Positions 4,398 to 58,600 of a stretch of 64,000 bases of DNA are shown here, one piece after another. The position numbers and the translations under genes were made by a program. Location of the stretch: NCBI GenBank assembly GCA_946811185.2, contig OX328104.1, positions 46,732,505 to 46,796,504 of the forward strand, read 5' to 3'. The notes under the pieces were generated by a model, which saw only the letters and a list, made by a program, of their open reading frames with translations, had not been told where the DNA came from and did no database searches. The first letter of the stretch is position 1. Each line of letters opens with the position of its first letter. The DNA comes from Hippopus hippopus (taxonomy: Eukaryota > Mollusca > Bivalvia > Cardiida > Cardiidae).

Positions 4398-4626
4398 TTA
4401 ACTCATTACCAAACGACAAAATTTTAGGTTTGTCCAAATCGAAAGCATTTGCAGACGACAAAATAAAAGTGACTGAAAATTTGAAATTTGTTTTGTGAAG
4501 GGTAGAAAACATTGTGGGAAAAGGAGAAAATGCTGGTTACCAGCATTTTCTCCTTTTCCCACAATGTTTTCTAAAGGCTTCTTTCTTAGGGTCGTCAAAA
4601 GTAGGGATTGTGTGGTAATGGGTTAA
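4398..4626 (-). mobile_element. MITE copy, near complete
   Basis: TTAA at both ends; core perfect over at least 29 bp per arm (acattgtgggaaaaggag and its complement). Shares its right TTAA with the next copy. Confidence 0.9.
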
Positions 4627-12754: not shown

Positions 12755-12838
12755 TCAGCTCTGAATACCCATCACTAACTTCACCCATTTGCCCATGTCC
12801 ACATCGGCATTTTCTGAATTTTTCACAAATGCATGACT
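12755..12838 (-). CDS. MAP2K1: MEK exon 11 (terminal)
   Basis: 28 codons, [18 protein letters not shown] then VKLVMGIQS and TGA, after a ttgcag acceptor. [13 protein letters not shown] aligns with HAFIKRSDAEEVD of human MEK1. The usual FAGWLC is MGKWVK here and the tail stops soon after, so the C-terminus is divergent and short. Confidence 0.88.
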   Translation of the reverse strand, partial: SHAFVKNSENADVDMGKWVKLVMGIQS

Positions 12839-15800
12839 CTGCAAAATAAATTGTATCTTTGTACAGTGTGTTGAACTCTGTACGAAACAACCAATTTTAC
12901 ACTAGTCCAAGTTGAAAGTATTTGCTGACAACAAAATAAACTTGACACAGAAATTGAAATTTGTGTTGCTGAAGGGTAGAAATCATTGTGGGAAAAGGAT
13001 TCTAAAAAATGCTAGTTATCAGCATTTTCTCCTTTTCCCACAATGTTTTCGAAAGCTTTCTTTCTCAGGGTCATTAAAAGTTGGGATTGTGTATTAACTC
13101 TTTACCAAACGACAAAATTTTAGACTGGTCCAAACTGAAAGCACTTATAGACGACAAAATATACGTAACTCAAAAATTGAAATTTGTTTCCAGCATGGTA
13201 GAAAACATTGTAGGAAAAGGAGAAAATGCTGGTTATCAGTATTTTCTCCTTTTCCAACAATGTTTTCAAAAGGCTTCTATCTCAGGGTCGTAAAATCCAG
13301 GGATTGTTTGGTAAAGGGTTATGGGGTTGACTCTATACAGAATGACAAAGTTTTACAGAACTGCCCAAACTAAAAGCACTTACAAACTTTCTTTACCGTG
13401 ATTTTCTGCCTCTCACCCCTGTTGCATGTGAGGAAAGTATTCAGAGGCTTAGAAAGGAAGTTGTTTCAGTGCTGGCGTGAGAAAGCCAGGAAACACATGC
13501 ATAGGTGCACTAACCCGTGATAAGACCAAAGCTGTCGGGGTTGTGTGGTAATGAATTTGGTAAAAGCGCTGTATTTCACTTTTCCATCAAAATTTCAAGT
13601 TCCGAAGATATATGACAAGGTTGCAGCAAATATTGCACCTAACAGGACCACAACAAATAAATCATGCCATTCCTTGGCTCAATGAGGGAAAATATATCCC
13701 TAACTCTTTACCAAACAACAATATTTTAGACAAGTCCAATTTGAAAGAACTTGCAATTGACAAAATTTATATGGCCTAAATGATGGGTTTTGTATCTGAT
13801 AGTCTTGAAAACATTGTGGGAAAAGAAGAAAATGCTGGTTACCAGCATTTTCTTCTTTTCTCCCCATGTTTTCAAAAGTCCTACATCTCAGGGTCATCAA
13901 AACCTGGGATTGTATGGTAAAGTGTTAAAAAAGAAAACAATTTTACCATTAATGAATGAAGATCAGCCCTTTCTGATGGATTCTTTTTTAAACTGAAAAA
14001 AAAAAAAGTTCATGTAACAATATGAGAAACATCATAATAAATGTTATAATGCATATTAACTTTTTACCACACAATGCTTAGTTTTAATGAACTTTAGAAA
14101 GCTTTTCAAAACACTGGAAAAGAAGAAAATGCTGGTGACCTTCTTTTCCCACAATATTTCTAATCTTTTGTATAAAAATTCCATTATTTCAAATACATTA
14201 ATTCATCATCTGCAAATGCTTTGAATCTGGGTAAGTCTACAACTCTGTCATGTGGTAAAGGGTTAAATCTTACATGATATAAGTAAACTACGTAATACTC
14301 TAACAGATGTTGACTTAACCCTGTACTACACAACCCCAAGTTTTAACAACCCTGAAGAAGAGGGTATTTGAAAGCATTATGGGAAACGGAGAAAATGCAG
14401 TTAACCAGCATTTTCTCCTTTTCCCACAATGTTTCTATCCTATCAAAGGCAACTTACATCATTTGAGCCACATTAGATTTGTCAACTGCAAATGCCTTTG
14501 ATTTGGACTAGTGTAAAATTTTGTTGTGGTAAAGAGTTAACGCCTTACGTGTTTAATAGACAAGACAGTTGTTCAAAAAGGGGAGATAATTCCTCATACT
14601 GAAAGGTACACTTATAAAAATTGTGTATCTACATTTCACTGTTAAAGGTTGTGCCAAGTTCAAAGCACAGACAGCAAAACTATGGAAGGAGTTCACATCA
14701 CAACTGTAACTATATACATTTACACAAATTTTGTGGTCTTATTAAGACTTTACTCTTTTACCGAACAACAAAATTTCACACTTGTGCAAATTAAAAGCAT
14801 TCACACATGACAATTTAAATGTGGCTCAACTGATGAATTTTCTCTTTGATAGGGTAGAAAACATTGTGGGGAAAAAAGAAGAAAATGCTGGCTACCAGTA
14901 TGTTCTCCTTTTCCCTCACTGTTCTCAAAAGCATTTCCCCTAATAGTCGCTAAAGGGTTAACTCTATACCAAACGATCCGGAGTTTTAACAACCTTGAGA
15001 AAGAATGCTAATGAAAACCGTGTGGGAAAAGAAGAAAATGCTGGTAACTAGCATTTTTACCTTTTCCAACAAGGTTTCTACACTTTCATACACAATAACC
15101 ATCATTTTAGCAACATTTGTTGTCTGCAAATGTTTCAATTTGGACCAATCTGAATTTAATTGTGTGGGAAAGAGTAAACCTTTAGAAAGCTACATTGATC
15201 AGAACCTTTAGAGTGCTACATTACTCTGATAGACCAGGTAAAACAGCCTAAACAATGCAACTCAAGGTTGTTTAACCAGTACATTTTACAAAGTACCAGA
15301 CAAAGTGGATCCAAGATCAGATTGCATGTTGTGTGAACTTTATCTTGATCAAAATTGCCGTAAGTAGTTTTTAGCTCTCTTATGGTTAAGTCAGTATGCT
15401 GCAAATCATAAAGCTTTGTTTATATTTATGATCAACAAGAGCATCGCATGTGGGTACCAAGGCTCTCCTGCAGTTGCTTGATTTTCACTAAAAACTTAAT
15501 GTAAAAAAAAGCATAACTGTGTCAAAAATACTTTGATGGTTACCTGCCCTTATTCTGTGGGCTCCCTTTTTGATACCAAACTTTTCTAAGTTTAACCCTT
15601 TCCCACACAATCCTGACTTTTAACAACCCTGAGAAAGCTTTTCAAAACATTGTGGGAAAAGGAGAAAATGCTGGTTACCAGCATTTTCTCCTTTTCCAAC
15701 AATGTTTTCTACCCTCTCAAAGACAGAAATCATCATTTTAGCAACTTTTAATTTGTTGTCTGCAAATGCTTTCAATTTGGTCCGGTCAAAAATTTTGTCG

Positions 15801-18800
15801 TTTGGTAAAGAGTTACAGTAAATATCTTCAGTACTGACAGAGATATTAATGTATACTGTCAAAGTTTTTGAAAATGACAACTCTAGGGCTACGACAATAC
15901 CTTGACATTTTCTTTGAAAACAGGCAAGCTGATAACTACTGTTCACTTACCATCTGTCCACAAAGTCTATGAATTCATCTGAAAATTTCCCTTTTGGCAA
16001 GGTGGGTGGAGGCTGAAATGATATATAATTTCTGCTATCAAAGCATTATCACTCTAACCATTTGCCACTTATTTTTCCTGTTTACCTTAGATTCAAATAT
16101 GGTTTCTCGCACATTTCTTTAAACCTTTCCCAAACAACAGATTTCAGACTCTTTCAAATTCAAAACATCTGCAGGCGGCAAATTCAAAATTAGTATAAAT
16201 GAGCTTGAGGTCTCTGAAATGGTAGAAAACATTGTGGGAAAAGGAGAAAATGTTGATAACCATTTTCTCCTTTTTCTAAAATGTTTTCAAAATCCATCTT
16301 TCAAAACATGTCTGAAATTCTTGCCAAATCAAAGTGACAAAAAAAATACAAAATTACCTTTAAACTTCCTTCACAGGAAATTTGCAGCAGACAACTTCAA
16401 AAACACGCCTTTATAATATGAATTCTGAACATCAAGCAATATTAAAGACTGAAGATCTAGACCAGACTGCAACGAACCAGTCCTGCACTTTAATTTCTAA
16501 TTCAAATTGCCTGATATGAATTGAGATGGTCTGATTCATTGGTGAATTAATGTTTTCAACATTATTTCAATCACATCAAGCAACTCAAATGTTCTGAACA
16601 AATCAGCTTCAAAACTGCAATACCTGGGGATTTTTGACCAACTAAAATGTCCATTTCACTCTACCAAACCACCCATTTTACACTGGTCCACATTGAAAGC
16701 ATTTGCAGATGACACATTAATAATTAACCCTTTACCAAAACGACAGATTTTAGACTCTTCCAAATTGAAAACACCTGCAGACGACAATTCAAAAACTTTT
16801 TCTAATGAGCAATTTCTTCTTTTCCCACAATGTTTTCAAAAGCCTTCTACACCAGGGTCGTAAAAACAAGGGATTGTTTGGTAAAAGGTTAATCAGGTAT
16901 TGCTCGAATGGTGAGCAATGTCTTTGAAAGGATAAAAAACTTTGTGGGAAAAGTAGAAAATGCTGCATTACCAACATTTTCTCCTTTTCCTAAAATGTTT
17001 TTAGAAAGGTTTATTCCTCAATGTCATTAAAACATAGGATTTTTTGGTAAGCGGTTAAAATATTTAGTAATGTTAAAGAGACCCAAATGTATAAACAATA
17101 CCATATTCTGCATTGAAAACGCCCATACTATTAGTAACATATGAAAGTTAATGAAGCCTCCAGTTACTTTCTTCACCTCATGCAAATAAAAAACATTTAA
17201 ACCTTTAGTTCTGTAATAAGTACCAAAGCCTGACCTGCTGATGAGATATAACTTGTAGCTTGCTGACTTGCAGCTGACAGTTTTAAAGGTTTAAAAAACC
17301 CAAATAAGCAAATAGGTATCCATAATCTTCCACTAGGTGGCATTTTTCATATAAGTACCTACCCCATTGGGGCATTCTGGGTACAGAACTGGAGTACTTT
17401 TCAAGGTGGCATCAAAGAAGGGAATTTCGAAATAAAACAATACCGGTAATGTTTATTCAAAATAAAGCTAGCTGGTACATGGTTAGCTAGCATTAAACCT
17501 ATGCACCAGTCATCACAAACACAGCCTCTATAGGCCTGGGAAACAGCCCTGGTGGGGATTTCTTTATTGTAGTGGAAGTTAGTGAAAAAACCTGCACAAA
17601 ACCTGGTTTTCTCATGTTTATATTTAAAAACCGTATACAAAGATTTGCAGTAAATAATGGGTTTTTTTTTTTAAGTCATTTTTCACATTTGAAATTATTA
17701 TATTTTCAAGAAGTTTGGAACAAAATAGGCTTGATATATTATTTATAGCCATGTTCAATTTGCTACTTTTTAGAGGCACAGTTTTTAGTTTACACATCAC
17801 ATAGCAATATCTATCATGTAGAGGATAGTGATGCTTGATAGCAGACAGGTCAATCTTTGAAAAATATGACATACATGGAGACGCTAGGTATCCCATGTTA
17901 GATATATTTAAATAATGCAACCTAACAGCTGGTTAAAAAATTCTTATTCAGTGTAAAGATGATTTTCTGACTTAGTTTTCAATCAACTTGAGTCAGTAAA
18001 TGCAAGTTCCAACCCTTATACCCCATTTCAAAACTAGGGCTGGATTTCATTCAGGTGAAGAATTATCGCAACTAGAACACATAACCTAAAGTTGTCACCA
18101 CACAACAGTCAAAAACAGAGATCAAAATATAATAGCTAATCTTGAGAATTTCATTGATAGGTGGCATAAAAACCTTACACAATACAAACATCAATACTAC
18201 CTACACTAATACCTACTAACAACAACAGCATTAACCTAAAAAGAGACAGAAATCATTTCTGATAGAAAATAAATCTGGTGTTTGATGCTGTACTTAGATC
18301 CCTAAAATGCAAAGTGTAACTTAAATTCTTTACATGACAAAATTATGATCCCAAGAAAGCAGAGTGTGACTTAAATTCTTTACAAGATGACAGAACTTTG
18401 ATCTCAAGAATGCAGAGTGTGACTTGAATTCTCTATGACATGATAGAATTTGGATCTCAAGAATGCAGAGTGTGACTTGAATTCTTAATGAGATGACAAA
18501 ATTTTAATCCCAAGAATGCAGAGTGTGACTTAAATTCTCTATGATAGAATTTTTATCCCAATAATGTGGAGTGTGACTTGAATTCTTTATTAGATGACAG
18601 AATTTTGATACCAAAAATGCAGAGTGTGACCTAAATTCATTATGAGATGACAAAATTTCAGATCTGTCCATACAGAATTCCAGATCTGTCCAATTTGAGA
18701 GCAATTTTCATACAACAAACTGGACGTGGCTCTAATGATAGGCTTTGTCTTGGAAAAGGTAGAATTTTTGTTTACCCCTTTACCACACAATCCTGAGTTT

Positions 18801-21800: not shown

Positions 21801-24800
21801 CATACACAGACCGATGCAAACAACATTCCTGCATACAACCTTGATTGGCTTTCAGCCAGCATTTTCTCCTTTTCTCACAATGTTTATATACCCTTTCAAA
21901 TAGAAATGCCTGCAACAGAACTGGTTGAAATACAACACAATTCCATTAGGTTTTTTTTGTGTAGCCTTTCTCTGCATCAAGTCACAATTATGTTTAAAGG
22001 GACTATGTTAGATTTTTTCGGCTGCAAATTAAATTACCCACTACAAACTATACTTTTCTGAGCTTGGGTGAAGAAATTGCCTTGCAATCCCATCTGTGTT
22101 AATGATCACATGACATTCCCATAAGTTTTTGCAAAATCTTAAAATACATCAGGAGGCCATGTAGCCCATACGGGGAATACCACCGAAAATAATTTTTTTC
22201 TTCGATTTGTCTTTCTTCTTTACTGATGGTTATTTGCCAATTATCCCTTTACTTAATCTTGATCACTTGTTGGAGTTTGCCAAGAAAAATCATCATCTTA
22301 ATAGCCCCTTTAAACATGTCACAACAATAAATGTGAGCTGTACTTTGGGAAATAGGGGTTTAGTGCATCTCCATGACCCATTATACCCAGCAAGTCATCA
22401 AACAAATCTTTATCCATAAAATCCATTTTGTCTAAGAAACATCTGAATCATGCTATGTTGATAACTTTTGCAGATGCATAAAACCCCCTAACAACAACAC
22501 ATGACTCTTGTGTTTTTTGCATCAGTCTATGTACAGGTTGCATTTCAGAGCCATTTTGTTCAGGTCTTAACAGGATGCTAAAGCAAAAATCAGGACGGTC
22601 ATATTACTGTCTTGCTGTTTGACAGGACATCAAAGAAAACATTGCTACAGCAATATCTCTTGCTTATACAAGCATTTAGATTAACTGTTTCAATGTAATT
22701 AACAGCCATAACTAATCAAGAAACAATCATAACATTAACTAAATTAACATGAAGAAAGGTCTCTAAACAGTGAACAGTGCAACTGTTGCTGTGTCTCTCA
22801 AAACATACCTCATTGACAATGAAATCTAAAAGCTCAAAAATGGCCATAGGTCGAGGGCCATCTGAACTGGGACCTACAGAACCGGGAACAGGCGGTGTCG
22901 GAAGGGTTAAATTATTCCGGTTCAATCCTAAAATAAAGCAAAACAAACAAAAATTGCAACACAATTTGATCATGACAATAGAGCATCTGACAGGAGCACT
23001 TGAGGTGATGACCTACAAGACCAACTGTGAAGGGCATACTAAAATCACATGATCAGTCATGTGACATGCCATACTCAGCCATCATCTTAGGGTAATTTTT
23101 AAAAATGCTCATGCACGTGAATGACCTCTGCAAGACAGCAATGAGTTTGGGTTTCCTGAATATATAATGGTTTAGCATTATGGGTATTTGAGCCAATTTT
23201 GATTCCAAACAATTCTGCCTTTCTGCAAGTTTGATTGTATTTGTATCATTTTCAATTCAACTGATTGTTAAAAAGCACTTATTTCAATCCTGCCATTCAG
23301 TGATCCTGAGAAAGAAGGCTTCTTGCAAAAGAAGAAAATGATTGCAACAATCTGTATGTACTCCCCATTAATAATACACACTGTATGTTTTGGGTCTATA
23401 GTAAGCTATTACAAGTTCATGTGAATAAGTTGGCAAACATGAACTTTGTGCACATCAAGTTAGCAAACATTAACTGTGTGCACATCAAGTTTTGCATAAG
23501 TTTTTTCTATTCTTCAACACACAATCGTAACTTAATACGACCCTGAGGAAGAAGCCTTTTGAAAACATTGGGGAAAAAGGAGAAAATGCTCTTTTCCCAA
23601 CAATCTTTTCTACTCTTCCCAAAACAAAGTTCAATATCTGAGTCACATTTATTTTGTTGCATGCAAATGCTTTCAATTTGGACAAGGCTAACATTTTGTT
23701 CTGTGGTAAAGAATAAAATGACTTTGTAGTTTAAGTGCTAATTTACTACAGTACTTTTGACAAAAGCAAAGTTCAAATTAAAACTGCAGCATTATTTGCC
23801 TATCATAATCATTTCTCCAGACAATAAAGTTTGTTTCCACCTTTCCACTTGCAGAAATACAGAATTTTGGCCAAAATCAGCCCACTGCCTGTTCTCATGT
23901 AAGCAGCCATTCTGATAAAGAAGAAATATACACAAAATTAGAATGGAATTTCATGCAGCAATATGGCTGTGCAGCATCATTGTACAAAAAAATTACCTCC
24001 CCTTTCTAATTTCAATACCATACTTTCTACAAAGTGTTTTTTGGTTTTCCTTTTCTGTACAAAGAAACATGCAGTTAGCACTGTACCAACACCTAATACA
24101 ATATTAATTTTATAGTCATAAAAACACAATGATCAAGATTTTGCTAAGTTATTTATATAGATTTGTTTGGTCTGAACATTTTATAGGGAATATTGCATGT
24201 TGCATTGAAAATCTAACAAACAAGATTTTTCAAGCAAAATCCCTACCATGCCCTATTTTCATTATTTACTTAAATTTCCTCCCAAAAAATAGCGAATAGT
24301 CATTTCTTTTTCCTTCAAACTATTCAAAACTTAGCAAAACTGGATAGCATAATATTGCAAGAGTTTGGCCTGTCCAAATTAAATGTAAAGAATTCTTGCA
24401 GATTCAGTACAATATCATATATCATACCAAAATCAAAGGTAAGTACTGTTTTGTTTTACCTTACACGTTGCTAAAACATACAATTTATAGAAAAATGTAC
24501 TAAAATCTAGAATCTCTGTCTTTTAAAATACTTATACAGAACTCAAAACAAATAATTTGGCAAAATTTTACTATCAAGTATTTGTTTTTTCTGAAATAAT
24601 TTCTCATACACATACTTATTGCTCTTACACATATTCATTTCTTTCAAAAGTTTAAAAATATAGACAAGCCATGCCCTTGGAAATATCTAATTATAATAGT
24701 TTACATCATGCAAAACCATACACACACAAATATATATGTAAAATATTACACACCTAGTGCTTCAATTAAAATTTACTATACACAACATACATTCCATGCA

Positions 24801-27800
24801 CACATAATTACTTACACCTGTATCAAACAACCAAATAATTTCTTTTTAAATAAAAAAACAAGAGCACCGCATGAGGGTGCCTATGCTTTGCTGCGGTTGC
24901 TTTTAAGAAATAATTGGTTTTCAGTGAAAATTTTAAGTCAAAAAAGCAGCATGAAAGTGTCAAAACATGTTTTGATAATTACCTACCATACTGGTGTTGG
25001 TAACCCTTTTGACAGTTAACAATTGGTCCGAGTTTTAAGTAAACATCTTTAGTAATGACAGAAATAGAAAATGTTAAAGTTTTTGCATATCGGAAAACTA
25101 GGCAGACCACAACCTTGACCTTTTGGAAAACAGCTGAGCCAAAAATGAAGAAATTCCATTAATTCTACTAAAAAGGTCAGATTACAAAACAAATGATTTA
25201 ACATCATCACTTTACATTTCTGATTTTCAAGAATAATGCTTCTAAACTAGACACTGATAACATGTCTAGGATTTAACTATTAAATTATAACAACAAATTA
25301 CTCAGACATGTGTGTTCATCAATTCTTTTACACTATGTTAAATTCTATACTAGGACAAACATCTATTTATATTCATGTTTAACACAATGTTCAGACTATG
25401 CCACAATGTATTTTTGCTTGTCTTGAATAAAATGAAAAGAAACATTGATTCAAGAACAAGAACAGGAAAGAGAAACATTTACTCTACTAAAAAACACAAA
25501 TTCTGACTTTTCCAAAGTAAAAACATTTGCAGACACCAGATTAAATGTTGCTTACATCCTGAAATTGTCGTTTGAATTTCTACCAAACGACAAAATTTTG
25601 TACAAGTTTAAATTGAAAGCATTTTTAGATGACAAAATAAATCTGACTCAAAACTTGAAACAATTTTTTGGATGGGTAGAAAACATAGTGGGAAAAGGAG
25701 AAAATGCCGGTTAGTAGCATTTTCTCCTTTTCCCACAATGTTTTCAAAACTCTTCTCATCCAGGGTCATTGAAACTCTGGATTGTGTGGTAATGGGTAGA
25801 AATCATTACTGATCGTCTTTGACAGGGTAGAAAGCATTGTGGGGAAAGAAGCTTTTTCTGACAATGTCTTCAAATGCTTTCTTCTTCTTGATGAAACACA
25901 TGATTGCTTGGTAAATAGTTTTATCCTGTCACCTTCTACAATTTTGACCCGATAACAGGGTGCCGTATATTTTTTTTTGTTATCCGTCAGTTGGTCACGT
26001 GACCGATAAGTGCGCACCTGCTAACTGGGACTATTTTCAACCAAGCGTCTTACTGCCGTAATTAATGAATCAATCGCTAGCAAATACTTTTGCTCATTTA
26101 ATTCATAGTATGTTATGGTAAAACTCATTGTCTTCTTCGCCACAATATTTTTCTGTGGATATACGTCACGTTTAATAATAATGACGTAGCCAATATCATT
26201 CATGACGTCATTATTGCAGCTGCATATCCAGAGGGTTTTGTAAACACGGTTCTTCATTTTTTAAAGTTTCTCATAGATTTACTGAGAAAGATGTGAATAT
26301 GTGCCTTATTTCGAGTCGGATTTTGGATTATAATTGAGAAAAAGGATAAATCAAAAAGACGGTTGGTGTCTTGGATTGGGAAAGTCGATCAGGCTCGGCT
26401 CCGGAAATTTATTAAAGTTACGGTCTGTATCAAAGTTTTTTTTTTTTTCGTTTGTTTGTTTTGTTTTGTTCCATTACAGTGAGTGACAGGATAAATAGAA
26501 TAGATGGTTGGTGTCTTGGATGGGTTAAGTTTATCGGGCTCGGCTCCGAAATTTATCCGGTTTGCCTTCAGGTCACCAGATAAATTCCTCCACCTTGCCC
26601 GATAAACTTAACCCATCCAAGACACCAACCATCTATTCTCTATAACCCTTTACAACATAATCCCATCTTGTGACGACCCTGAGAAAGACATCTGAAAATA
26701 AATTTCAACTTTTGAGTCAAATTTATTTTGTTGTTTTGCAAGTGGTTTCAAACTGGATAAGTCTAAAATTTCGTCGTTTGGTAAAAAGTTAAACACAGTT
26801 ATCGGCATGACTGTCTGTAAATAACATCGTAAAGATTTCCCTAAACCAGGATACAAAAGGGAATTGGCTTGTATTACAATTATGCCTATACATACTTATA
26901 TAAAACAAGCTACATTTTATGTCCTTCACTATCAAAGATTTGGCCCATTGTTTTTGAAAGACAAAAAAGTCATTTGTTAAAGTTTATAACTATGCTCAAT
27001 CAAGTAGCTGATAAGCCAGAGCTACCTGCAACTACAATATTCCTATGCAGTCGGCTTTTTTTGGTTGACTTTTGTCTCACTTGTTGGATGAACTTTAGTT
27101 ACGGTAAATATCTGCAGATTTACCTTTTTCACTCAACTAAAATATGCTCTCCCCTCTATGACATACCCGTCAACTCTCTACCAAGCAGTAAAATTTTGCA
27201 CTTGAACATTCTAAAAGCATTAGCAGACAACCAAATAAATGTAGCTCAAATAATGACTTCTCTCTTTGTTACAGTAGAAATATTGTGGAAAAGGAGAACT
27301 TGTGGGTTACCAGCATTTTCTCCTTTTCCAACACTGTTTTCAAAAACCTTCTTTCTTAGGGTCGTTAAAAATTGGGTTTTGTGTGGTAAAGGGTTTATTT
27401 AAAATTTCAAGGAAAATTATGTCTCATTTTCAAGTTTATGGGGTTACTTTTTTTTGGCAAGCAAGTCTGATCATAATTATTTGATAGCAGCAGATAAAGA
27501 CTTAACTTCCCCCTAGAAACAAACCAATCAGCTAAATTTCAGTGAAAACTGCCATTTCAGTAGCTCTGTCTTATATCTACTTGGCTAAAATATAAAGCAC
27601 AATAAATCTGGAGGGATAACTGTTCTTGATGGTTTCTCTTCTAGTTTTCTGTCACAAAAATCTTTGCCACAAGACAAAATGAGACTGGTCCAGATTGAAA
27701 ACATTTGCAGACAATAAATTAAATGTGACTCAAATAATAAACTCTGTCTTAGAGGAGAAAACACTGTGGGAATAAGACAAAATGCTGGTTACCAGGAATT

Positions 27801-30800
27801 TCTCAACCAGCATTTTCTCTTTTTATGTCAATGTTCTCAAAAGCCTTCCTGTTCAGCAGTCCTTAACACTCAGAAATGTGTGACAAAGGGTTAACACTTT
27901 ACCACACAATGACGCCTTTTAACGCCCCTGAAGAAGAGGCATTTTGAAAACATTGTGGGAAAAGGAGAAAATGCTGGTAACCAGCATTTTCTCCTTTTCC
28001 CACAAAGTTTTCTACCCTATCAAAGAAAAGTTGCGTCATTTGAGCCACTATGAAATTGTCGTCTGCAAATGCTTTCAATTTGGATAGGTCTTAAATTTTG
28101 CAATGTGGTAAAGAGTTAAGGAGCTAAAAGGGGCATGTTTCAAGTCCAAAACATACCAAGACTCGAACAATGCCCAAAGTCTGAAAATCTACTGGTTTAT
28201 TTTAAACACAGATTGTCAAAAGTTATAAATAATTAAGTTGTATATAGTATCACTAAATATTTTAATGTGAAGTTGCTTTCTTTGAATTTGGTCTTTCATT
28301 TTGATTACTTTATGGCCTGAGATTTTTTGACAAATGTTCTCATTCTGTATATCTTAGGTTAAGAAACTACATTAAATCTATATCGATTTTCAGCTTGGAT
28401 ATAAAGCTGCACAGTTCAATCTAAAGGAATAAATACTTTAATGGATACAGTGCACTGGTGAAAATGCTTTCCCTATATTCTTGTTTATTTATCCTTGCTT
28501 TGTCTTTTTCTTTGATGGGGGGCTGCTGCCCCACACACCCCTGCTGCAGCCTTAGCAAAGACGCATGGAATGCAAGTCTTGAATAGCAAAGAATGAACTA
28601 AAATGTAGCAGGGTCAGCTAAAGTAGATTCTATCCCTTTTAAATACTGGTTAGCTAGATTTGTGCGAATAAACCCACAAAAGCCTGGACTTTATTTTTTT
28701 CATTTGTTTTTCTAGATCCAATAAAAGTACAACTAGAGCAATATCTTATCAAATTACAACACGGTTTTGTGCCAACATAAAATGCAAAATGTGTACAATA
28801 GATGACCAATTTCTTTCATAGACAAACCTACAGCAGTCCACTAGTCATTTTAATTCTGTCTGTATTTCAAGCACTATAACTGATATATCAATTAATGCAA
28901 GACCACAAATTTTTACAACATCTGTTTAAACACAATAAAAAGATAGCAAAAGAATGCAATTCAGCACTTCAAATATATTGAAAAAAAATGACGAAATTCA
29001 TGACTGGATAAAAATCACCTTGGCACAAAAAAATCAAAATAATTTAAAGAGAGAGATGATATCAAAAACATAATAATACATGTACAAGTTACAGTAAAAG
29101 GGGAGGTAATTCATTCAACACAGATTTTTCGCTGCATGAATATAAGAAAGCCGACTATTAGCTGTTACCTCATTCACTATATATTCTAATAGTTCAAAAA
29201 TGGCCATGGGTAAAGGCCCATCACCGGAAATGACTTGAAAATCACCCAAGCAACCTGAAACAAACAACTCGGTCAAACATATACAGAAACTTTTGAATTA
29301 TAGAAAGGTTGCACACATTAACTGCATAATTATGTAATGGCTCATCAGCTGACTGTAAATGCTTAACCCTTTACCACACAATCCCAAGTTTTAATGAAAT
29401 CGAAAAAGGATTTTAGAAAACATTGTGGGAAAAGGAGAAAGTGCTAGTTACCAGCATTCTCTCCTTTTCACACAGTATTTTCTATAAAAACAAACTGGAT
29501 TATTTTAGCCACATTAAATTTGTCATCTCTAAATGTTGTTGATTTGTACAAGTCTAAAATTTTGTCACATGGTAAAGAGTTAACTAAACAAATGATCCTA
29601 CTACCATCAAAAGCTTTTCAAGGACATTATAGGAAAAGAAGCAAGTGCTTCAATTTCCTAATACATTCCACATGAATTTCCTTTCAGGAAAATACGTGTC
29701 ACTTGATATGTCATAGTGTTCAGCAGGTCATGTCATAACCCAATAGACAATGATCCCCACATTTTTTTGATAAAAGGCACAGTAGTTGTCATATGTAAAC
29801 AAAACAAGTGTCAAAATACATTTGAGCCATGCCCTGGCAAAGGGGGGCTTAATGTATCTCCGTGATGCATTATACCAAGCAAGCAATAACATACTTATGG
29901 ATCTGTGATGGCCACTCTTTTTTTTTTAACAACCGACTTAAAAATCACAAAAGTAAACAAAGTGGGTGTTTAAATGCATTTGAATTTATATCATACCATT
30001 TAAAAGTATGGAAATTATTGTGAAGATGACAATCTGTCATTGTATGGTCTGTCCAAGTGTTAGTTGCTGACAGAGAAATTAATTTCAAAACTAGGTCAAA
30101 CCCGCCTGGTAGCTGTGTCTTTTTTTTACTTTTTGCCCGATTTTAAAATTCTTTTTGTCTGCCAGCGACTAACATATGGCCAGACCACTTGATAACAGAC
30201 TGTCATCTGCACAATATTTTTCATACTTTTACCTGATATGATTTAAATTTAAATGTATTATGACCCCTGCTTTGATATTTTGGCCTTTACTGGGCCTTTA
30301 ATCATGAGGCAGACCAGTCCTTGCAATCAGAGAAAATTGACCAGTAGCGAAAAGTTTCGGCCCAGGTCAACCTGTGCCGACTGCGCAGGCTGAACTGGGT
30401 CAGTACTTTTCACAGATGCATTAAGCCCCCTTTTCACAGAGCATGGCTCATTGACAATTAAATTATACCTTTTAAAAGTATGGAAATTATTGAAATGATG
30501 AAAATCTGTTACTGTAGGGTCAGTCTTAGTCTTAGTCAATGGCAGGAAAATGAATTTTAAAACAAGATCAAAAGTTAATAGGTCACTCTATCTTTTGTTA
30601 ACTTTTAGCCTGGTTTTGACATTCATTTTCCTCCCAGGAACTAGAATTTGGACGGACTGTACAATATGAAATTGTCATCTTCACAATGACTTCTGCTCTT
30701 TTAAATTCAGGTGCATTTAAAAACCTGCATAGTTTACCTTTGGCCATTACTGGGACTTTAATTGAATACATTGTATTACATGTATATATAAACATGAAAG

Positions 30801-33800: not shown

Positions 33801-36800
33801 AATCTGAACATTCCCTTCTATGAGTATGACCCTTTACCATACAATCCAGAGTTTTAATGGTAATGAAGAAGGCTTTTAAAAACATGGTTGGAAAAGGAGA
33901 AAATGCTTGTAACCAGCATTTTCTCCTTATTCCACAATGTTTTCCACCACATCAAAGACAGAAATCATCCTTTAAGCTACACATATTTTGTCGTCTGCAA
34001 ATGCTTTCAATTTGGTCGAGTTCAAAATTTTATTGTTTGGTAAAGAGTTAAACAGAGATATTTCCAATCAGGCCTCATGAATATTTGATAAGCCAGGTAT
34101 TTAACCACAGGTAATTGCTGCTACCTGAACCAATTAATATACACGACGATCAATAATGCTTCATAGCTAGTCCCCTCCCATTTCAACATTTTCTATGAAT
34201 GACATTCTAAACCTTTCCCAAATGATCCCTTGTTTTTATCTTTTTCCACACAATGCAGAGTTCTGATGAACCTGAGCAAGAGGCCTTTGGAAAACATTGT
34301 AGGACAAGGATAAATGCTGGTAACCAACATTTTCTCCTTTTCCCATAAGCAGGGGTCCTGCGTGGCTCAGTGGAAAAGGGTAGGACTCATGACCTGAAGA
34401 TCCCAGGTTCGAGCCTCACTGGATCCACTAGGTTTTTCGTGGGAGTATCCCTGGGTAAGACAATTCAGAGCTCAAGCCTAGCAATGGTGAAACCCAGGAA
34501 ACACATGAATATGTGAGCTGTTGCTGTGATATGACTAAAATATTGTTGACAGTGGTGTAAAACACCATGCAACCAACCAAATCCTTTTTCAGAATGTTTT
34601 CTACACTTCCTAAAACTAGTTTCAACAATAATGTTGACATCTGCAAATGTTTCCAATTTCAGCAAGTCCAAACTTTTGTCTCTTTGGTAAAGACTTTTAA
34701 AAATATTTTCACATTGTAACTAGCATTTTCTCGTTTTCCCCAAATGCTTTCTACCATTATGAGGACGAATCACATTATTCACTTTATTTGTTGCCTGCAG
34801 ATGCTTTCAGTTTGGGCAAGTTGTTACGGGAGACCACTCCTTCATGCATGGATTCGTCCCGATTTAAATACAATACCTAATAACTGCGTTAGGGAGATAT
34901 CTCTTTAGCTCAGTGGTTATGGTATTGGTCTTTTAAACCTCGAAAAACGAGGATCTTGTCCGCCGTGGGTTCGAATCCCGCCAGATGCGGTTTGTATTTC
35001 AGCCATGCATTTGTTCATTTGTTTCTTTGTTACGGACTTTGTTAGTAAGAAAGTATAAATTTTGTAGTTTGGTAAAGATTTGAAACAGTGCCATCAATTT
35101 TTCCTCCTTTATGCATTGTTTTCCACCCTACTCCACCTTTAACCCAACATGCCCATATTTCAGCAACCAGCATTTTCTCCCTTTTCCTGCAATGTTTTCT
35201 ACTTTACCACATCAATCACCAGCATTCTCTCTCTTTTTCTGTAATGTGTTCTACTTGATAAAAAAATAAATCCTACCATTTTAGTATCATATAACATTTT
35301 GTCTGCAAATGCTTTACCAAACGACATAATTATGGGCTTGTCCAAATTGAAAGCATTGGCAAGCAACACATGAAATGTGACTCAAATTATAATTTATGTC
35401 TTTTTTGATGGAATGAAAACATTGTGGGAAAAGGAGAAAATGCTGGTTACCAGCATTTTCTCCTTTTCCCACTATGTTTTCAAAGGCCTTCTACCTCAAG
35501 GTCATAAAAACTTGGAAAAGTGTGGTAAAGGATTAAAGCTGTACTTACAGACATATATGATCTTGTTCCTACAAATGAGTTTGCCATGGAGTCTATCAGC
35601 TGCCCACTAACACCAAAATCACAAATTTTTATTTCACCTCGTGAGTTTACCAGTATATTTGAAGGCTTAACATCTGTACAAACAACAAAATGCAATTAAC
35701 ACTTTTGCACAAAATAAAAAAGTATGACTCCACCAAACTGAAAGCAATTGCATACAAGAAATCATCTCTGGCCAAAATACTGGACTTTGTCCATAAAATG
35801 GCAGAAAACAAGATGGAAAACAGCATTGTCTTCTTTTCCTTACATGTTTTCATAAACCTTCCTCCAACAGGTAGTTACAACACAGGTTGTTTGTTAAACA
35901 GTTAATTTATTTATCTATGAGTTTCAGTAAAAGGACAGAGTAAACACTGTAGAAACAGGATTATCTGGTTGCTAAAAGTAATCGCTCCTTTAATGTTTTT
36001 AAAGCTGTTTTCCACAAGAACACAGAAACATTGTCTTTGTGCTTATATAGTTTATATATTTGTTTCTGAGATGTTTTAGCCCACTTTCAACTGTATTTCA
36101 TTCATGTTACAGTAATAGCTCACTTGTAAGTACATTAACATGGTAATATCATCAGTATTTGCCTGTGAAGAAAAAAGTTTATGCAAAATGCCTTAAGAAA
36201 ATAATCATCAATCATTTAACTCTTTACCACAGAATAAAATTTTACATTTGTCAAAAATCACAGCATTTTATGACCACAAATCAAAGGTGGCTCGAAGATG
36301 AAACTTGCTTTTAATTGAACAAAAAACATTATGGGAAATGGAGAAAATACTGGTTACCAGCATTTTCTCCTTTTCCAACAATGTTTTTTAAAAACTTTCT
36401 CAGGGTTGTTAAAACTTGGAATTGTGTGGTAAACGGTTAACCTTGAAACAAAAGAACAGCAAAATTGAGTAATCAGTGTAATCTAAAATCAGAAAGAATG
36501 TACACACTGAGAAACACAGACTCTTATGATCATGACATGGTAAGTATGTTAAAGGTCATTATGACACTTGACCTTGACACTTTGACCTTTAGACCTATTG
36601 ACCTCAAAATTAATAGGAATCATCCCTAGTTCATGGTAAATATTTGTACATAGGTCAAACCAAAGTCTAACTATTGTCTGGAAAACTTTGGTATCCCAAT
36701 GGACTTACTGAGAGACTGACATGTGCAAAGCAATACCCTCAACTCCTTGAAGGGTTGGAAGGTGTCATAGAACGACAATGCATGTATTTGCCATACTCAC

Positions 36801-39800
36801 AGGCAACATTTGATACATACCTCGATGCATAATTGAATGTTTTTCTCTCAAGTATATCAACCCCTTTAATACCTGAAATATAAACAGGAACAAACAAAAG
36901 TTATGATTTAGTTTCCCTCTGTTGCAAAAGGTAGTTTAGTATTTGGATGATCTTTATTTGTTTGTATTGGAGTTTAACACCTATCTAACAATCATATCAC
37001 TGCAGCTAGTGCATCTATGCTCATGTTTCCTGGCTTTCTCCTCCAAGCACTGACTTTCTTTCCAAGTCATTGACTACTTTTCAGATTGAAGTTACCAAAT
37101 GGCACTATATCTAATTTCTTACCAAACGAAAAATTGAAAGCATTTGCAGACAATTATTCCAATGTTGCCCCAATGATTTGTCTTTGAAAGGGTAGAATGC
37201 ATCATAGAAAAGGAGAAAACGCTGGTTGCCAGCATTTACTCCTATTCCCACCATGCTTTCAAAAGCCTTCTTCCACATGGACTTGGGATTGTGTGGTAAG
37301 GGGTTACATGAAAAGAATTAATTTTCATTAATTACTGCAAAAAAGGAACAGTTACTAAGTGTTTGTTGGTGGGGATCTGTTTTTTCCCAAAGGGGTACAA
37401 GAATGCTAGCCACCAGCACTTTTTCCCTTAACCACAATATTTTCAAATGCCTTTTTATCTGGAAGTGATTAAAATTGTTTGTATTGGAGTTTAACGCTGT
37501 TTTTAACAGCTTCAGTCATATCATGTCAGTCAATGCATCTAAGCATGTGTTTCCTGGCTTTCTCACACCCGTACTGGCACAACTTTCTTTCAAAGTCACT
37601 GACTACCTTTTCCAGACATCAGAGGTGAAAAGCAAAAAGTTGCCATAAAGAAAGTTTGCCTCAACCAGGTATTGAACCTGCGACCACAAGGTCACCCATC
37701 AGAAACTCCAACCACAGAGCTATCAGCCAGGCTGAAGGCACGAAAAATGCAAGACTGTTTGATTACAATTTATGTAAGAATATAGATATCAACAAAATGA
37801 CTTACATCAGCTGTCAATCTACCCAAGATTGGTTCTGGTATTCTACCTACTTTTTTCAGTATTAAATCCAAGGAACCACCATCCTGTAAAAGACACAGAG
37901 AAGAGAGGTCTCAACTGTTTACCACCCAACAAAGTTTCAAGCTAATCCACATCGAAAGCATTTGCTGACGACAAATTAAATGTGGCTCAAACAATGAATT
38001 TGTCTCTCACAGGGAAGAAAACATTATGGGAAAGGAGAAAATGCTGGTTACCAGCACTTCTCCTTTTCCCAAAATGTTTTCTATCGTATCAGACAATTGA
38101 ATTAATTTTAAATTAGTTTATAATTGTTGCTTGTAAAGTGTACTGAAAATAGGAGAGATGTTAAAAAGAAGGGGAGTGTTAATAAGGGGCAACATGGTAT
38201 ATACACAACATGACATTTCAAGCTATGTCAATGAAGAGTAACATTATAAAAGTATCATAGTTAACTGTTCACCAGACAACAAACTTTAGACTCTTCCATA
38301 CTGAAAACATTTGCAGATGATATATCAAATGTGGCTCAAACAACGATATTTTTCTTTGAAAGAGTCGTAAACATGCAGGATAAAAAGAAAATACTGGCAA
38401 CCAAGCACTGTTTTCAAAACACTATCTCATATTCTCATATTCTCACTAGAAAAGGGGATAGTTTGGTCAACAGTTGGTTGACCATGGCACTTACCATATA
38501 TTCCATACATATACTGATTTCTCCATCTGAGTAAAATGCACCGTAAAAGCCCACAATGTATGGAGAATTACATTCATGAAGCACCTTCAATTCACGAATA
38601 ATTTGCGTACGTACTGCTGGCTTTATTTCAAGATGTATCAGCTGGAAAAGAAAATTGATAAACATGCTATGAACAATCAATTAAATGTGATTTATTTTTA
38701 AAAAACTTTCAATTTTTTTTTTAAATTAATTTGTCAAGGGAAGAACATTTATTCCAAACTACAGACCACTTCTGTTGCCTGAAGAACTCAAAAACAAAGT
38801 GATTAAGGGATAGATCTTTAACAATCCATCCTTAGAGAGCATACACCCGAAGAAAGTGATCTGTATATTCTACGATAAATTACCCTGCCAAGGCAGGCTT
38901 TTGAAAATATGCTAGGAAATGTAGAGAGTTGGTAACCACCATACTAAAACCATCATTTAACCCTTTACAACACCAATCCCAACTTTTAACGAACCTTTTG
39001 AAAATATTGTGGGAAAATTGTATTTGAAAACATTGTGGAAAAGGAAGAAAATGCTGGCACCAGCATTTTCTCATTTTCCCATCATGTTTTCTAAACTTTT
39101 GAATACAATTTTCAAATTTTGAGTCACATTTACATTGACATCTGCAAAACCGTCCAATTTGGATGGTTCTAAAATTCTGTTGTTAGGGAAAGAGTTGAGC
39201 CATTCTCTTCAAATCTTCTACATACTCCTTCAGTATAAGATTTTGTCATACTGGGTAAAAAATAACCCTTTACCAAACAATAGAAGTTTAGACCTGTCTG
39301 CAGTAAAAGCACTTGCAGGCCACAAATTAAATATAGCTCTAATTATGGATTTAGTGTCTGAAAGAGTGGAAAACATTGTATTAAAAGGAAGAAATGCCAG
39401 TTACTAGCATTTCCTTCTGTTCCAACCATGTTTTCAAAAGCCCTATGCATCTGCAGTGTTACTAATTCGGAGTGTGTTGTAAAGGGTTCAAGATACATTT
39501 TCACTTATTTTCTGCCAGTTTTTAACCCATTTCATCTTTATTGTAGTAAACTATAATCATTCTTGTATCTTAATGCCAAATGTTGCCAATATGGTTGCAA
39601 GGTTGCACAGATTATGACTGATAGAAAAAATTCATATCATTTTCTGGAGGCCATCAAAGAAATCAATGTTGTCGTTTCCTGTTTCAAATCAGTCAAATCC
39701 CTCGAGTTTCTCTATCCCTTACACCATATATATCTGTGATTTATCTATGTTTAGACTAAATTATTGAACCATTCTACACAATGTCAAGTCTTAATAGCGT

Positions 39801-42800
39801 TTTTTCTTTCTGGCTGTGCGGATGTATCTTTAAGCAAAAGGAGTGTACAGACATTCTTTAATACATGTATTACCTTTCTTGCCATTACCAACTTTGTTGG
39901 TCTGTGAAGTACCTTCATCACAACACCACCATTGCCTGCACCCAGTTCACCAATCCTATCAAACACATCAGCTGTCAGCTCACCAACCTGTTGTTTTCTC
40001 GTTAAAAAAGCTTCCAGTCTTTCTCTTTGCTGTTCGTCTATGTCCAACTCCTTCAACTTTTGCGTAAGAGATTCTATGTTAGGATTTGGCTTCCTGTAAA
40101 TATACAAAATAAAACTGATGAACCATGCTCTAGCAAAAGGGGGTTTAGAGCATCTCCATGATGCATCAAACCAAGCAAGTCATCACATAGATATATATCC
40201 ATATAATCCATTTAGTCTAACAACTGTCCAAATCATGAGGAAGACTGATCCTTTAACATGCAGAAAATTGACAAATAGCAAAAGGTTTTGGCCCAGGTCA
40301 GCCTGCACAGACTGACCTTGGTTGGTACTTTTTGCAGATGCATTAACCCTTTACCAAACAATCCCTGGTTTTTACGGCCCAGAGGAAGAAGCCTTCTGAA
40401 AACATTGTGGAAAAAGAAGAAAATGCTGGTAACCAGCATTTTCTCCTTTTCCCACAATGTTTTCTCCTCATCTGAAGTCAAGTTTCATTTCATGAGTCAT
40501 ATTTATTTTGTCATCTGCAAATGCTTTAAATTTGGACAAGTCTAAAATTTTGTAGTTTGGTAAAGAGTTAAGCCCCTTTTTTCACAGAGAATGGCTCATT
40601 TCTTTATCAAACAACCCCAAGTTTTAATGATCCTGAGAAAGATGCTTCTGAGAACACTGTGGGAAAACGAGAAAATGCTAGTAATCAGCATTTTCTGCAT
40701 TTTCAACAATGTCTTCTACCCTTCCAGAAACGAATTTCACTTTTTGATTCACAATTTGGACAAATCTAAAATTTAGTAATTTTGTAAAAGGTAAAGCATT
40801 TTCAAAAGTAACTTTTCTCAGGGTGGTTAAGAAGGGAGATGATTTGTTGAAGTGTTAATGTCAGTTAAAGGTGTCTAGCATACCAAGCTACATACAGACT
40901 AATCATTTGTAACTAATTGATGCATTAGCATGCTCCAATGCAATATAATTATATAGGTCCTGCCTCTTCTTTGAAAAAAATATCATTCTTCTGAATATCT
41001 CAGCCTTTTCCAATAATCCTGGGGTTTCAAGGACCCTGAGGGAACAGCGGTAATCAGCATTGTCTCCTTTTCCCACAATTTTTTCTACTTTTTGAAAGAA
41101 AATGTTCAGGTTTTGAGTAACTTCTAATTTGTTGTCTGCAAATCCTTTCAATTCCAGCATGACTAAAATTTTGTAGTCTGGTAAAGACTTAAAAGCAATA
41201 TACATGCCCCCCCCCTTTTTTTTAATTTAAAAAAAAAATATCAATCTTATAAATTCTAATCAGTCTAAACCATTGACTCTAAGTAAAACTGGTATACATA
41301 TTTCTAGTTTAGAACATTCTTCAGTTATCACAACTCTTTACCACATGACAAGGTTTGAGACATGCCCAAATTGAAAGCATTTGCAGATGACAATTCAACA
41401 CCTCAAATGACAGGTGTTACCTTGGAATGAAAAGAAAACATTGTGGAAAAAGGAGAAAATGCTGGTTCCCAGCATTTTCTCCTTTTCCCACCATGTACTC
41501 AAAAGCATCTTTCTCAGAGTCTGTAAAAATTAGGATACTCTGGTAAAGGATTAAAACAATACTTATGTCAATCAAATCCAGCAGGGTCCCCCTGATAGAT
41601 ATCTCATAAGCATACGGTCATATATTAACTCTTAACCCTATCCCAAACAATCTCTTGTTTCTACGACCCTGAGATAGAAGCCTTTTGAAAACATAGTGGG
41701 AAAAGGAGAAAATGCTGGTAACCCACAATGTTTCCTACCCTGCTGGAAACAAATTTCAATTTTTGAGTTACGTTTGTCATCTGCAAGTGCTTTCAATTTG
41801 GACCAGTCTAAAGATTTGTCGTTTGGTAAAGAGTTAACAACACAATGCTGTGTTGCAATGACCCTGAAGAAGACGGCTTTTGAAAACATAGTGGGAAAAG
41901 GAGAAAATGCTGGTAACAAGCTTTCTCCTCCACAATGTTTTCTACCCTTATCTAAGAGAGAAACATTATTTGAGTTAAATTCCATTTGTTGTCTGCAAAT
42001 GCTCTTAAGTTGGACCGGTCTAGTATTTGACCATTTGAATTAGATTGCATAAGCGTTTATTGCTATTTTAACAGCTTAGGTCCAATCACAGAGGTCAGTG
42101 CACCTACGCATGTGTTTCCTTGCTTTATCACACCAGTACTAATACTTTCCTTTTGAGTCACTGACTACTTTTCTCACATGCATCATAGGTGAGAGGTGAA
42201 AATTATCCAAAAGGAAAGTTTGCCTCAACCTGGGATCGAATCCACAACCACCAGGTTAGAGTCGGATACGCTAACCACTGAGCTACCCAGGCCACTAAGT
42301 TGTGAAAAACTGGCAAAAAAGGGATATTATGGGGGATGTTTAACCCTTTACCACACAATCCTGACTTTAAACAACCTTCAGGATGAAGGCTTTTTAAAAC
42401 ATTGTAGGGAAAGTAGAAAATACTGATAACCAGCATTTTCTCCTTTTCCCACAATGTTTTCTCCTCTTTCATGCAACAATACCCTTCGAGTCAGATTTTT
42501 TTTTTTTTTTGCCATCTGCAAGTGCTATAACTTAGACCCGTCTTTGATCTTGTCGTCTGTTAATGGGTTAACCATATCTGGGGGAACATAGGGGACGTTC
42601 TAATGAGACAAAAAGGGACGTTTTGACTATGGGACGTTTTGACTGTGGGATGTTTTAACCGGATACCGTTTTCTTTCCATGCAATAAAGAGGTTCAGCAT
42701 ATCTCACTTTGAAATGACAAGCATTACTCCTCTGCAGCGCTCTTCGGTGGAGCTGTCAAATTCCAGTAAACGATTTAATTAAAGATTAAATTTAGCATGC

Positions 42801-55600: not shown

Positions 55601-58600
55601 CAATGAGCCAAGCAGGATCCCCCCCCCCCCCCCAAAAAAAAAAAGAGGAATCTGACAGTCTTTAGGTTTTGAGATAAAATGTTACTTCACATGTCTACAA
55701 AAATGTTGTTAAGCTTGCCTTAGGCTCCCTTAGAAACATGCTTGTTGTCTTTTTTAAACTGTTTACAAAATGACAACATTTTAGGTTCAACCAAATCGGA
55801 AGCATTTTTAGATAACAAATAAATGTTGCTGAAATGCCCTCCCCCCCCATTCCCTTGTCACTGGATCTGATAAAAACACAATAGTAATAGTGGACCAATC
55901 TAATTAAAATTGCTGATACACAAGCTCCTATGATATGAAGGCTTCTGTTAAAATACATATATTAGCCACTGTATGAAAACTATAGGTGGAAAAGAGGACA
56001 TAAAAATCTTAGACTAGTCCGGATTGAAAGCATTTGCAGATGACAAAATAGACCAGACTCAAAAACCGAAAATTGTTTTTGGGAAGGGTGGGAAACATTG
56101 CCGGAGAAAGAGAGAAAGCTGGTTACCAGCATTTTTTTCTTTTCCCACAATGTTTTTTAAAAGCTTTTTTCTCAGGGTTGTTAGAACTCGTGCTAGTGTG
56201 GTAAAGGTTAAGTTTTGATTACATACTTCACTTTCTCAACATTAGATCTGTCCTTCAGTCTTCTTACAGTGAACATTTTCCTTAATACGATAAGCAACTG
56301 AACAAAGTTGACCTGTAATAGAACAAGAGCACTGCATGCAGGTGCCAACACTTGGCTGCTGTTGCTTGATTTTCAGTGGAAATCCTAGGTCAAAAAAGGG
56401 GTATAACTCTGTAAAAAATACTTCGACGGTAAACTGCGATTGTTGCATAGATTCCCCTTTTGATAGTAAACGACTAGTTTTTGAAAACGTCAGTGTTTCT
56501 GCACGACGACACAGACAACGCCAGAGCTATGACTATACCTTGACATTTTCTTCAAAACAGTCAGGCTAATAAAGTTTGTTATTTCTTTACCAAACGACAA
56601 ATTTTTAGACTTGTCCAAATTGAAAGCATTTGCAAACGACAAATCAAAAAGGACTGAATAATTTAAGCTTGTTTTTGGCAGGGAAAAGGAGAAAACGCTG
56701 GTTACCAGCATTTTCTTATTTTTCAACAATGTTTTCAAAAGGCCTTCTTTCTAGGGGTCATTAAAACTAGGGATTGTGTGGTAAAAGGTTAATACAATCT
56801 TGATGACAGAGTCCTCTTTTTCTTGCAATACAGAGAAAAATAGATGAAATGAAAACAAAAATAAAACACCCTACCGTTTCATAGTTGCCTTTTCTATCAC
56901 TATCTTTACTTAACTCTTTATCAATCGACAAAATTTTAGACTTGTCCAAATTGAAAGCATTTGCAGACGACAAAATAAATGTGATTCAAAAATTGAAACT
57001 TGCCTTTGGAAGAGTAGAAAACATTGTGGGAAAAGGAGAAAATGCTGGTTACCAGCATTTTCTCCTTTTCCCACAATGTTTTCAGAAGGCATCTTTCTCA
57101 GGGTCATTAAAACAAGGGATTGTTTGGTAAAAGGTTAATACAATGTTGATGACAAAGTCCTCTTTTACTTACAATACAGAGAAAAAAAGATGAAATGAAA
57201 ACAAAATTAAAACATCCATCACATTTCATAGTTGCCTTTTCTATCACTATCTTTACTTAACTCTTTATCAAATGACAAAATTTTAGACTTGTCCAAATTG
57301 AAAGCATTTGCTGACGACAAAATAAATGTGATTCAAAAATTGAAACTTGCCTTTGGAAGAGTAGAAAACATTGTGGGAAAATGAGAAAATGCTGGTTACC
57401 AGTATTTTCTCCTTTTCCCACAATGTTTTCAGAAGGCTTCTTTCTCAGGGTTGTTTAAACCAGGGATTGTTTGGTCAAGGGTTAACTGTTTACCCAACAA
57501 CAACACTTGGACTTGTCTTATGAACCAAGTCCGTAACAAAGAAACAAATGAACAAATGCATGGCAGAAATATAGGGACTGGGCAGGATTCGAACCTAGAA
57601 CGCCCGGACGAAAGGCCAATACCATAACCACTGAGCTAAAGAGATATCTCCCTAATGCAGTTGTTAGGTATTGTATTTAAATCGGGAAGAAGCCATGCAT
57701 GAGAGAGTGGTCTCCCTTAACACAACCCCTCTTAAAGTCATCATTTACTCAAAGCCTTATTAGGCAGTAAGTCTATTATTTAGACAACAAATGTCTGTTT
57801 TTGGACAACAAATGGGATTAATGGCTCAATGGCCAATCCCGGACGAACGAAGTCCGTAACAAAGAAACAAATGAACAAATGCATGGCAGAAATATAGGGA
57901 CCGGGCAGGATTCGAACCTAGAACGCCCCGACGAAAGGCCAATACCCTAACCACTGAGCTAAAGAGATATCTCCCTAACGCAGTTGTTAGGTATTGTATT
58001 CAAATTGGGAAGAAGCCATGCATGAGAGAGTGGTCTCCCGTAACACTTGTCCAAATCTAAAACATTCGATGACAAAAAATTAAATACCGGTATGGCTCAA
58101 AGGGAAAGATTTGTCTTTTACAGAGTACAAAACATTGTGGGAAAAGGAGAAAATGCTGGTTATCAGCTTTTTCTCCTTTTTTCCACAATGTTTTCAAAGT
58201 CTTCTGCTTTGGGGTCTTTCAATATGGGACTGTATGGTAAAGAGTTAATGTCTATTTTTGCAAGCCAATACAGATACTCAATTTTTACATTTTCTTGTTT
58301 CAAACTTGGTGTAACAAAATTGACTCATCTCCCCATGAAGCTAATCTGTTGCAGAAATCTTGGAACTCGACCATCTTTGTAAAATATGCTACAAGAACCA
58401 ATTTGAAAACATCCTTGTAAAATATGCTTAAGTCTTCACCAAATGACAAAATTTTAGACTGGTCCAAATTGAAAGCTGTTGCATACAACAAATTAAACAT
58501 GAATCAAAAACTGAAATTTACCAGCATTTTCTCATTTTCACAAAACATTTTCCAAAGCCATCTTTAGCAAGGTCATTAAAACTCCGGACTGTGTGGTACA

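Follow-up and report, generated by a model that had tools for sequence, protein, structure and literature searches.

Signals reach ERK1/2 mainly through MEK, whose loop helps set the strength and duration of the ERK signal. In vertebrate MEK1, according to passages of PMC5075022, T292 in this loop is phosphorylated by ERK in a negative feedback, and S298 is a target of PAK; MEK2 lacks the T292 site (passages of PMC5075022 and PMC10605237). Excerpts of a preprint on the MEK1-ERK2 complex describe a flexible loop that may lie close to the activation loop of ERK2, and an alphaG helix that docks on ERK2 with F311 at the interface (PMC12871702). Mapk14 is known to have mutually exclusive exons, as apparently do Mapk9 and Mapk10, according to a passage of PMC1431701. 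Here we describe a MEK1/2-type gene of the bivalve Hippopus hippopus, contained in a window of 64,000 nucleotides (nt) of contig OX328104.1 (assembly GCA_946811185.2, positions 46,732,505 to 46,796,504 of the forward strand), in which exon position 8 comes in two homologous versions, 8a and 8b. The reading that we prefer, and consider likely, is that the two versions are used singly, such that isoform a would be phospho-regulated and isoform b would be blind to those inputs.

The gene runs on the minus strand from 42899 to 12755 of the window and has eleven exon positions, with two versions at position 8:

42823 to 42899, minus strand: probable exon 1
39874 to 40093, minus strand: exon 2
38495 to 38641, minus strand: exon 3
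37806 to 37883, minus strand: exon 4
36821 to 36872, minus strand: exon 5
35549 to 35673, minus strand: exon 6, bearing the activation loop
32058 to 32247, minus strand: exon 7, phase 1 at its end
29169 to 29254, minus strand: exon 8b, entered in phase 1 and left in phase 0, with a class-b signature shared with 22 of 259 listed homologs
22809 to 22927, minus strand: exon 8a, entered in phase 1 and left in phase 0
15951 to 16012, minus strand: exon 9, phase 0 at its start
13947 to 13992, minus strand: exon 10
12755 to 12838, minus strand: exon 11, including the stop codon

The solved structures nearest to the window protein are MEK1 entries (4.7e-167), with the best MKK6 entry at 1.8e-63. The protein kinase domain (Pfam PF00069) is found in the two isoforms at 7.9e-64 and 1.4e-63, exon 6 encodes a two-serine MEK activation loop (we take SMANS to be the MEK motif at this place), and both isoforms, when aligned to MEK1, have the insert loop ahead of PMAIFELL, the helix to which PMC12871702 passages assign the docking of ERK. 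The constant parts of the protein match the listed proteins at 80-82% identity at best, followed by Sinanodonta (80%), Dreissena (79%), Mya (79%) and Ruditapes (79%); Mercenaria, among the matches listed, is 81% identical over 344 residues. These neighbors bear out an earlier note on this DNA, made from the letters alone, which had called the MEK a bivalve one. Toward the end of exon 7 (~32110-32058, minus strand) is an EEHxEAAxTGKPL-like stretch that recurs in most listed molluscan and annelid MEKs and not in the listed insect rows; a short helix is placed at this stretch, which precedes the exon pair, in both of the Mya models considered below.

Exon 8b is 86 nt long (acceptor ...tttgtttcag, donor gag/gtaaca) and exon 8a is 119 nt long (acceptor ...tttattttag, donor gag/gtatgt). 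They are homologous neighbors within one intron interval, between exons 7 and 9, with equal phases, and each alone keeps the frame: the joins 7-8b-9 and 7-8a-9 both give an uninterrupted MEK reading frame. Counting probable exon 1, the full isoforms have 388 (8b) and 399 (8a) amino acids (aa). The coordinates, phases, GT/AG sites and in-frame joins to exons 7 and 9 that the earlier note gave for 8a and 8b are all as claimed, and its isoform lengths were obtained again with exon 1 at 42899-42823. The note had described the 3′ halves as clear duplicates and the 5′ halves as unrelated; consistent with this, 13 of the 14 residues of a shared motif are found in each exon, and the 5′ halves have little in common beyond a short DGP junction. 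A scan of the six frames of the window found this motif at 13/14 residues at exactly two sites, with a next best score of 6, such that no third copy of exon 8 was found in the window, and the best score among 200 shuffled decoys was 8. The last 18 codons of 8a and 8b differ by eight synonymous and three nonsynonymous changes (proportions of synonymous and nonsynonymous differences, pS 0.70 and pN 0.07, both from small numbers), a ratio that agrees with cross-species conservation. The statement that the isoforms differ only in a proline-rich insert stood in part: the insert does differ, but the helix PMAIFELL... is swapped along with it, and in this species the 8b loop, with two prolines as against seven in 8a, is not proline-rich. 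The helix changes that separate the classes are R to L preceding PMAIF and D to E following ELL. No match to Rfam was found in the window at the gathering threshold.

The reading frame constrains how the two exons can be combined. In an mRNA that includes both, 7-8b-8a-9, codon 2 of 8a is a TGA stop and lies 221 nt ahead of the last junction; in an mRNA that skips both, 7-9, a stop lies 38 nt inside exon 9, with the last junction 70 nt further on. Under the usual 50-nt rule, used here as the criterion for nonsense-mediated decay, double inclusion and double skipping would both be targets. Since both stop early, the whole kinase is expected only from one-or-the-other mRNAs, and it is the predicted reading frame that enforces the use of either 8a or 8b, one per productive mRNA. 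From this frame, together with the annotated isoforms of other species, we infer mutual exclusion at the RNA level. The spacing of 6,241 nt between 8b and 8a makes simple steric blocking unlikely as the exclusion device.

Both exon classes recur widely in other species. Three protein searches (the best 120 of 568 matches; the best 120 of 273, with region 246-300 of P0035 as the query, ending just ahead of the insert; and all 111) gave 259 distinct proteins, a sample and no census, in which clustering at 90% identity can mask one isoform per species. A class-b signature, defined as PMAIFELL preceded by L, M or Q and followed by E or Q, is present in 22 of the 259, while 22 further proteins fell outside the pattern applied. 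The 21 named class-b proteins comprise 16 that are molluscan (Dreissena, two from Saccostrea, Crassostrea, Ostrea, three from Mytilus, Mya, Mercenaria, Mactra, Arion, Aplysia, Babylonia, Gigantopelta and Elysia), three from annelids (Lamellibrachia, Capitella and Helobdella), one from the brachiopod Lingula and one from the nemertean Lineus, the phylum assignments being presumed. Class a occurs among the listed proteins in bivalves, gastropods, cephalopods and the annelid Arenicola; its loops vary much between species. Given its likeness to the priapulid and horseshoe-crab form, class a is taken as the ancestral exon class. The class-b protein P0048 (406 aa) comes from a contig of 1,746 nt and the class-a proteins P0019, P0023 and P0028 (397-398 aa) from contigs of 1,359-1,549 nt. 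These contigs are too short for an intron-bearing MEK gene and are therefore probably transcript assemblies, which would indirectly support the presence of both classes in mature mRNA.

Two side observations concern the start of 8b. In Saccostrea, isoforms X1 (P0011) and X3 (P0002) are two b forms that are six residues apart at this point, pointing to an alternative splice site there. Babylonia areolata X1 (P0012) has at ~298-325 a class-b loop with the ACPG motif twice (ACPGGIDVLTS... followed by ACPGAPEVVSG...), which would fit a duplication or extension of the 5′ part of 8b there.

Additional evidence comes from species in which both exons appear to belong to one gene. The predicted Mya isoforms X2 and X1 (P0009 and P0031) are identical but for 15 columns within 299-328, corresponding to 8b versus 8a, and the predicted Babylonia isoforms X1 and X2 (P0012 and P0018) are identical but for 27 columns within 297-336; the members of each pair lie on equally long contigs, so each pair is taken as one gene. 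In Mactra P0057, the tail past 8b reads 8a in another frame (13 residues, compared with at most 6 in 200 shuffled tails); P0057 is, judged from this tail, a gene model that splices 8b to 8a, in the order seen in the window and with the early stop that the frame predicts. The predicted Lamellibrachia protein P0035, from an annelid, has 8b followed 88 residues on by a class-a exon 8 that runs into exon-9 sequence, the residues between them being probably translated intron. Only three of the 259 proteins contain the motif twice, the others being Papilio P0013 and Zosterops P0108, which repeat a single class and look like model errors. The two Saccostrea rows that were compared are both class b and give no a/b pair. 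The earlier note had proposed searching other bivalve MEK genes for the same exons, and the Mya isoform pair and the Mactra model answer that search; the pair extends beyond bivalves, as gastropods and annelids hold both exon classes. The proposal that a tandem exon duplication gives two MEK isoforms is supported by the window sequence and by these relatives, and the structure can be considered well supported.

The age of the duplication was addressed with FastTree on 68 exon peptides (22 of class b and 41 of class a, the window's own included in each, and five outgroups), in an alignment of only 43 columns; neither this tree nor the loop-motif count below included P0011, which is the second b form of Saccostrea. 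With full exon peptides the b peptides form a clade (support 1.0). Without the two label columns the clade holds the 22 b peptides and one hemichordate (0.985), and with the 5′ part alone it holds the 22 and three others (0.996); the 3′ part alone without the label columns gives no class separation. Over ten residues of the 5′ part, compared for 12 of the 16 molluscan b proteins and all six other b proteins, the mean identity of molluscan b to the b of other phyla is 0.39, compared with 0.09 to class a, and none of 2000 shuffles came as high as 0.39. A scenario of recent duplications arising lineage by lineage is not favored for class b, as the molluscan b peptides cluster with those of the annelids, the brachiopod and the nemertean and not with molluscan a. 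The presence of both classes across molluscs and annelids, in the same order in bivalve and annelid gene models, places the duplication before the mollusc-annelid split, a conclusion that is well supported by these comparisons and that makes the event older than the earlier note supposed.

The two classes also differ in the content of the loop. In vertebrate MEK1, the counterpart of the swapped loop is the stretch with T292 and S298; the exons in the window keep the helix and exchange the loop. SP or TP is found in 18 of 40 class-a loops versus 0 of 21 class-b loops, and R/K-x(1-2)-S/T in 27 of 40 versus 3 of 21; the 40 class-a loops were hand-picked among P0015-P0061, some of them taken as molluscan or annelid, the sequences are related such that the counts are not independent, and the 19-residue span scored leaves out the R-N-S or R-H-S present in four class-a proteins. 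This contrast suggests that isoform a is open to ERK feedback and PAK input and isoform b is not.

These data lead to the following model. Splicing would pick 8a or 8b, one at a time, to give isoforms that have the catalytic core and the ERK-docking residues in common and differ in the flexible loop just ahead of those residues. Isoform a would have a loop of the vertebrate MEK1 kind, receiving feedback phosphorylation by ERK (T292) and phosphorylation by PAK (S298). Isoform b would have a separately conserved loop nearly free of such sites, blind to ERK and PAK inputs, and may bind a partner via its motif resembling C-P-G-x-F-x-V-[I/L]-[T/S]-G. Cells could thereby choose, through splicing, between a phospho-regulated MEK and a feedback-blind one. 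We infer this function of the exon pair, as well as its expression in H. hippopus, from sequence. A stronger version is that the splice switch has been kept since before the mollusc-annelid split, with a as a phospho-regulated feedback loop and b as a separately conserved, phosphosite-poor loop with a partner of its own, such that one gene would supply two MEKs that differ in signal strength and duration, a division for which vertebrates have two genes, MEK1 and MEK2; this version is offered tentatively, and we doubt it somewhat more than we trust it.

Several observations weigh against the preferred reading. Exon 8a of this species has PTP and is without the R-x-S common in its relatives. SP and TP are absent from 22 of the 40 class-a loops, including most of the named gastropod loops, which means that the feedback part of the model cannot be universal. 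For Mya, the AlphaFold models of isoforms b and a (built from alignments of 19 and 32 proteins; mean predicted local distance difference test score, pLDDT, 64 and 73) give both loops a pLDDT below 50, and they do not show a structural difference between the loops. The 5′ part of molluscan b is 0.27 identical to five outgroup proteins, such that the separation there is partial. The a and b proteins of Arion differ throughout and may come from two genes, and for the brachiopod, the nemertean, Capitella and Helobdella the listed proteins do not show both exons in one gene. Finally, the splice sites of 8b look weaker than those of 8a (donor GTAACA and a pyrimidine tract of 59%, versus GTATGT and 82%). 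This last point is compatible with 8b being a relic out of use in this species, an explanation that we regard as very unlikely given that 8b retains an open frame, GT/AG sites and a strongly conserved helix, and that class b is found in annotated proteins of the close relatives Mercenaria, Mactra, Dreissena and Mya. The pyrimidine tracts of exons 9 and 11 are poorer still (53%), and the exon 7 acceptor is no better than that of 8b.

It has to be considered whether the pair serves dose control, with double inclusion or skipping being a regulated unproductive form that lowers MEK via nonsense-mediated decay, and the productive isoforms being near equivalent. Both unproductive forms fall under the 50-nt rule, by the distances of 221 and 70 nt given above, and the Mactra gene model holds a double inclusion. 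However, that model may be a prediction error, and equivalence of the isoforms does not predict that distinct residues and distinct 5′ parts are kept across phyla; we consider this explanation unlikely. Conservation also bears on a neutral or structural-only difference, in which both exons are spliced and supply alternative loops without regulatory consequence. The class-b 5′ part is conserved across phyla (0.39; 0 of 2000 shuffles; 12 molluscan and six other proteins), the phosphosite content is unlike between the classes, and the loop is regulatory in vertebrates, as described in passages of PMC5075022. While the low-confidence and probably disordered loops of the AlphaFold models and the variation of class-a loops among species are consistent with neutrality, we think it rather improbable. 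An assembly artefact or haplotype duplication has practically no chance of being correct: it is ruled out by the strong divergence of the copies (pS 0.70) and by the recurrence of both classes in other species, the window has no third copy, and nothing was found in its favor.

Two other features of the window deserve mention. A ~230 bp repeat with mirror-image ends (~TTAAC-CTTTACCA ... TGGTAAAGGGTTAA) occurs in both orientations throughout the window, its 76-nt core being present in 58 copies at 60% identity or more, with inverted pairs up to 89% complementary; it is probably a miniature inverted-repeat transposable element (MITE). Examples are:

4398-4626: ~230 bp repeat
13094-13321: ~230 bp repeat
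27891-28120: ~230 bp repeat
40343-40572: ~230 bp repeat
56909-57138: ~230 bp repeat
63455-63684: ~230 bp repeat

An open frame at 62196-62576 (minus strand) matches part of the secretin-family seven-transmembrane domain (PF00002, 3.5e-05, above the Pfam cut-off) and is perhaps an exon of a neighboring receptor gene.

The earlier note knew of no described pair of mutually exclusive exons at this position of MEK, and literature searches at the level of abstracts and passages likewise gave no description of alternative exons there. The annotated X1/X2 isoform sequences are already public; what is new is the description of an old exon pair in a central kinase, which looks like an unstudied route to two kinds of MEK from one gene. 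In several molluscs, but not in the annelids Platynereis and Capitella, MAPK activation has been tied to the embryonic organizer (passages of PMC7418201), and the choice of MEK isoform, in molluscs and annelids alike, would offer a concrete variable for organizer signaling.

There are parallels with several known systems. As in Mapk14, in the part of PMC1431701 cited above, the alternative exons fall inside a kinase catalytic domain, in a gene of the same cascade family; Mapk14 differs in being a vertebrate MAPK and not a MAP2K, and the MEK pair swaps a regulatory loop together with an ERK-docking helix. The duplicated exon 10 of oyster AOX is likewise a bivalve duplicated exon that is alternatively spliced, with a shift under stress, but it belongs to another gene, consists of terminal exons with their own stops and is perhaps unique to oysters, whereas the MEK pair is internal and frame-locked (passages of PMC5589949). 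Ancient tandem duplicated exon substitutions, an established class that includes Cacophony of arthropods, resemble the MEK pair in being long-kept homologous exons of otherwise identical isoforms; the searched text of PMC9741552, the source for these, names no MAPK or MAP2K gene, and the MEK event differs in having been observed here in no group other than molluscs, annelids, one brachiopod and one nemertean. The closest parallel in content is with vertebrate MEK1 and MEK2, which share a core but differ in the ERK feedback site T292, present in one and absent from the other (passages of PMC5075022). One important difference is that the vertebrate forms are two genes and not one gene with two exons, and the sequence of the class-b loop does not resemble that of MEK2. 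If the preferred reading is true, a single gene is able, via splicing, to produce the contrast at the ERK feedback site that separates MEK1 from MEK2.

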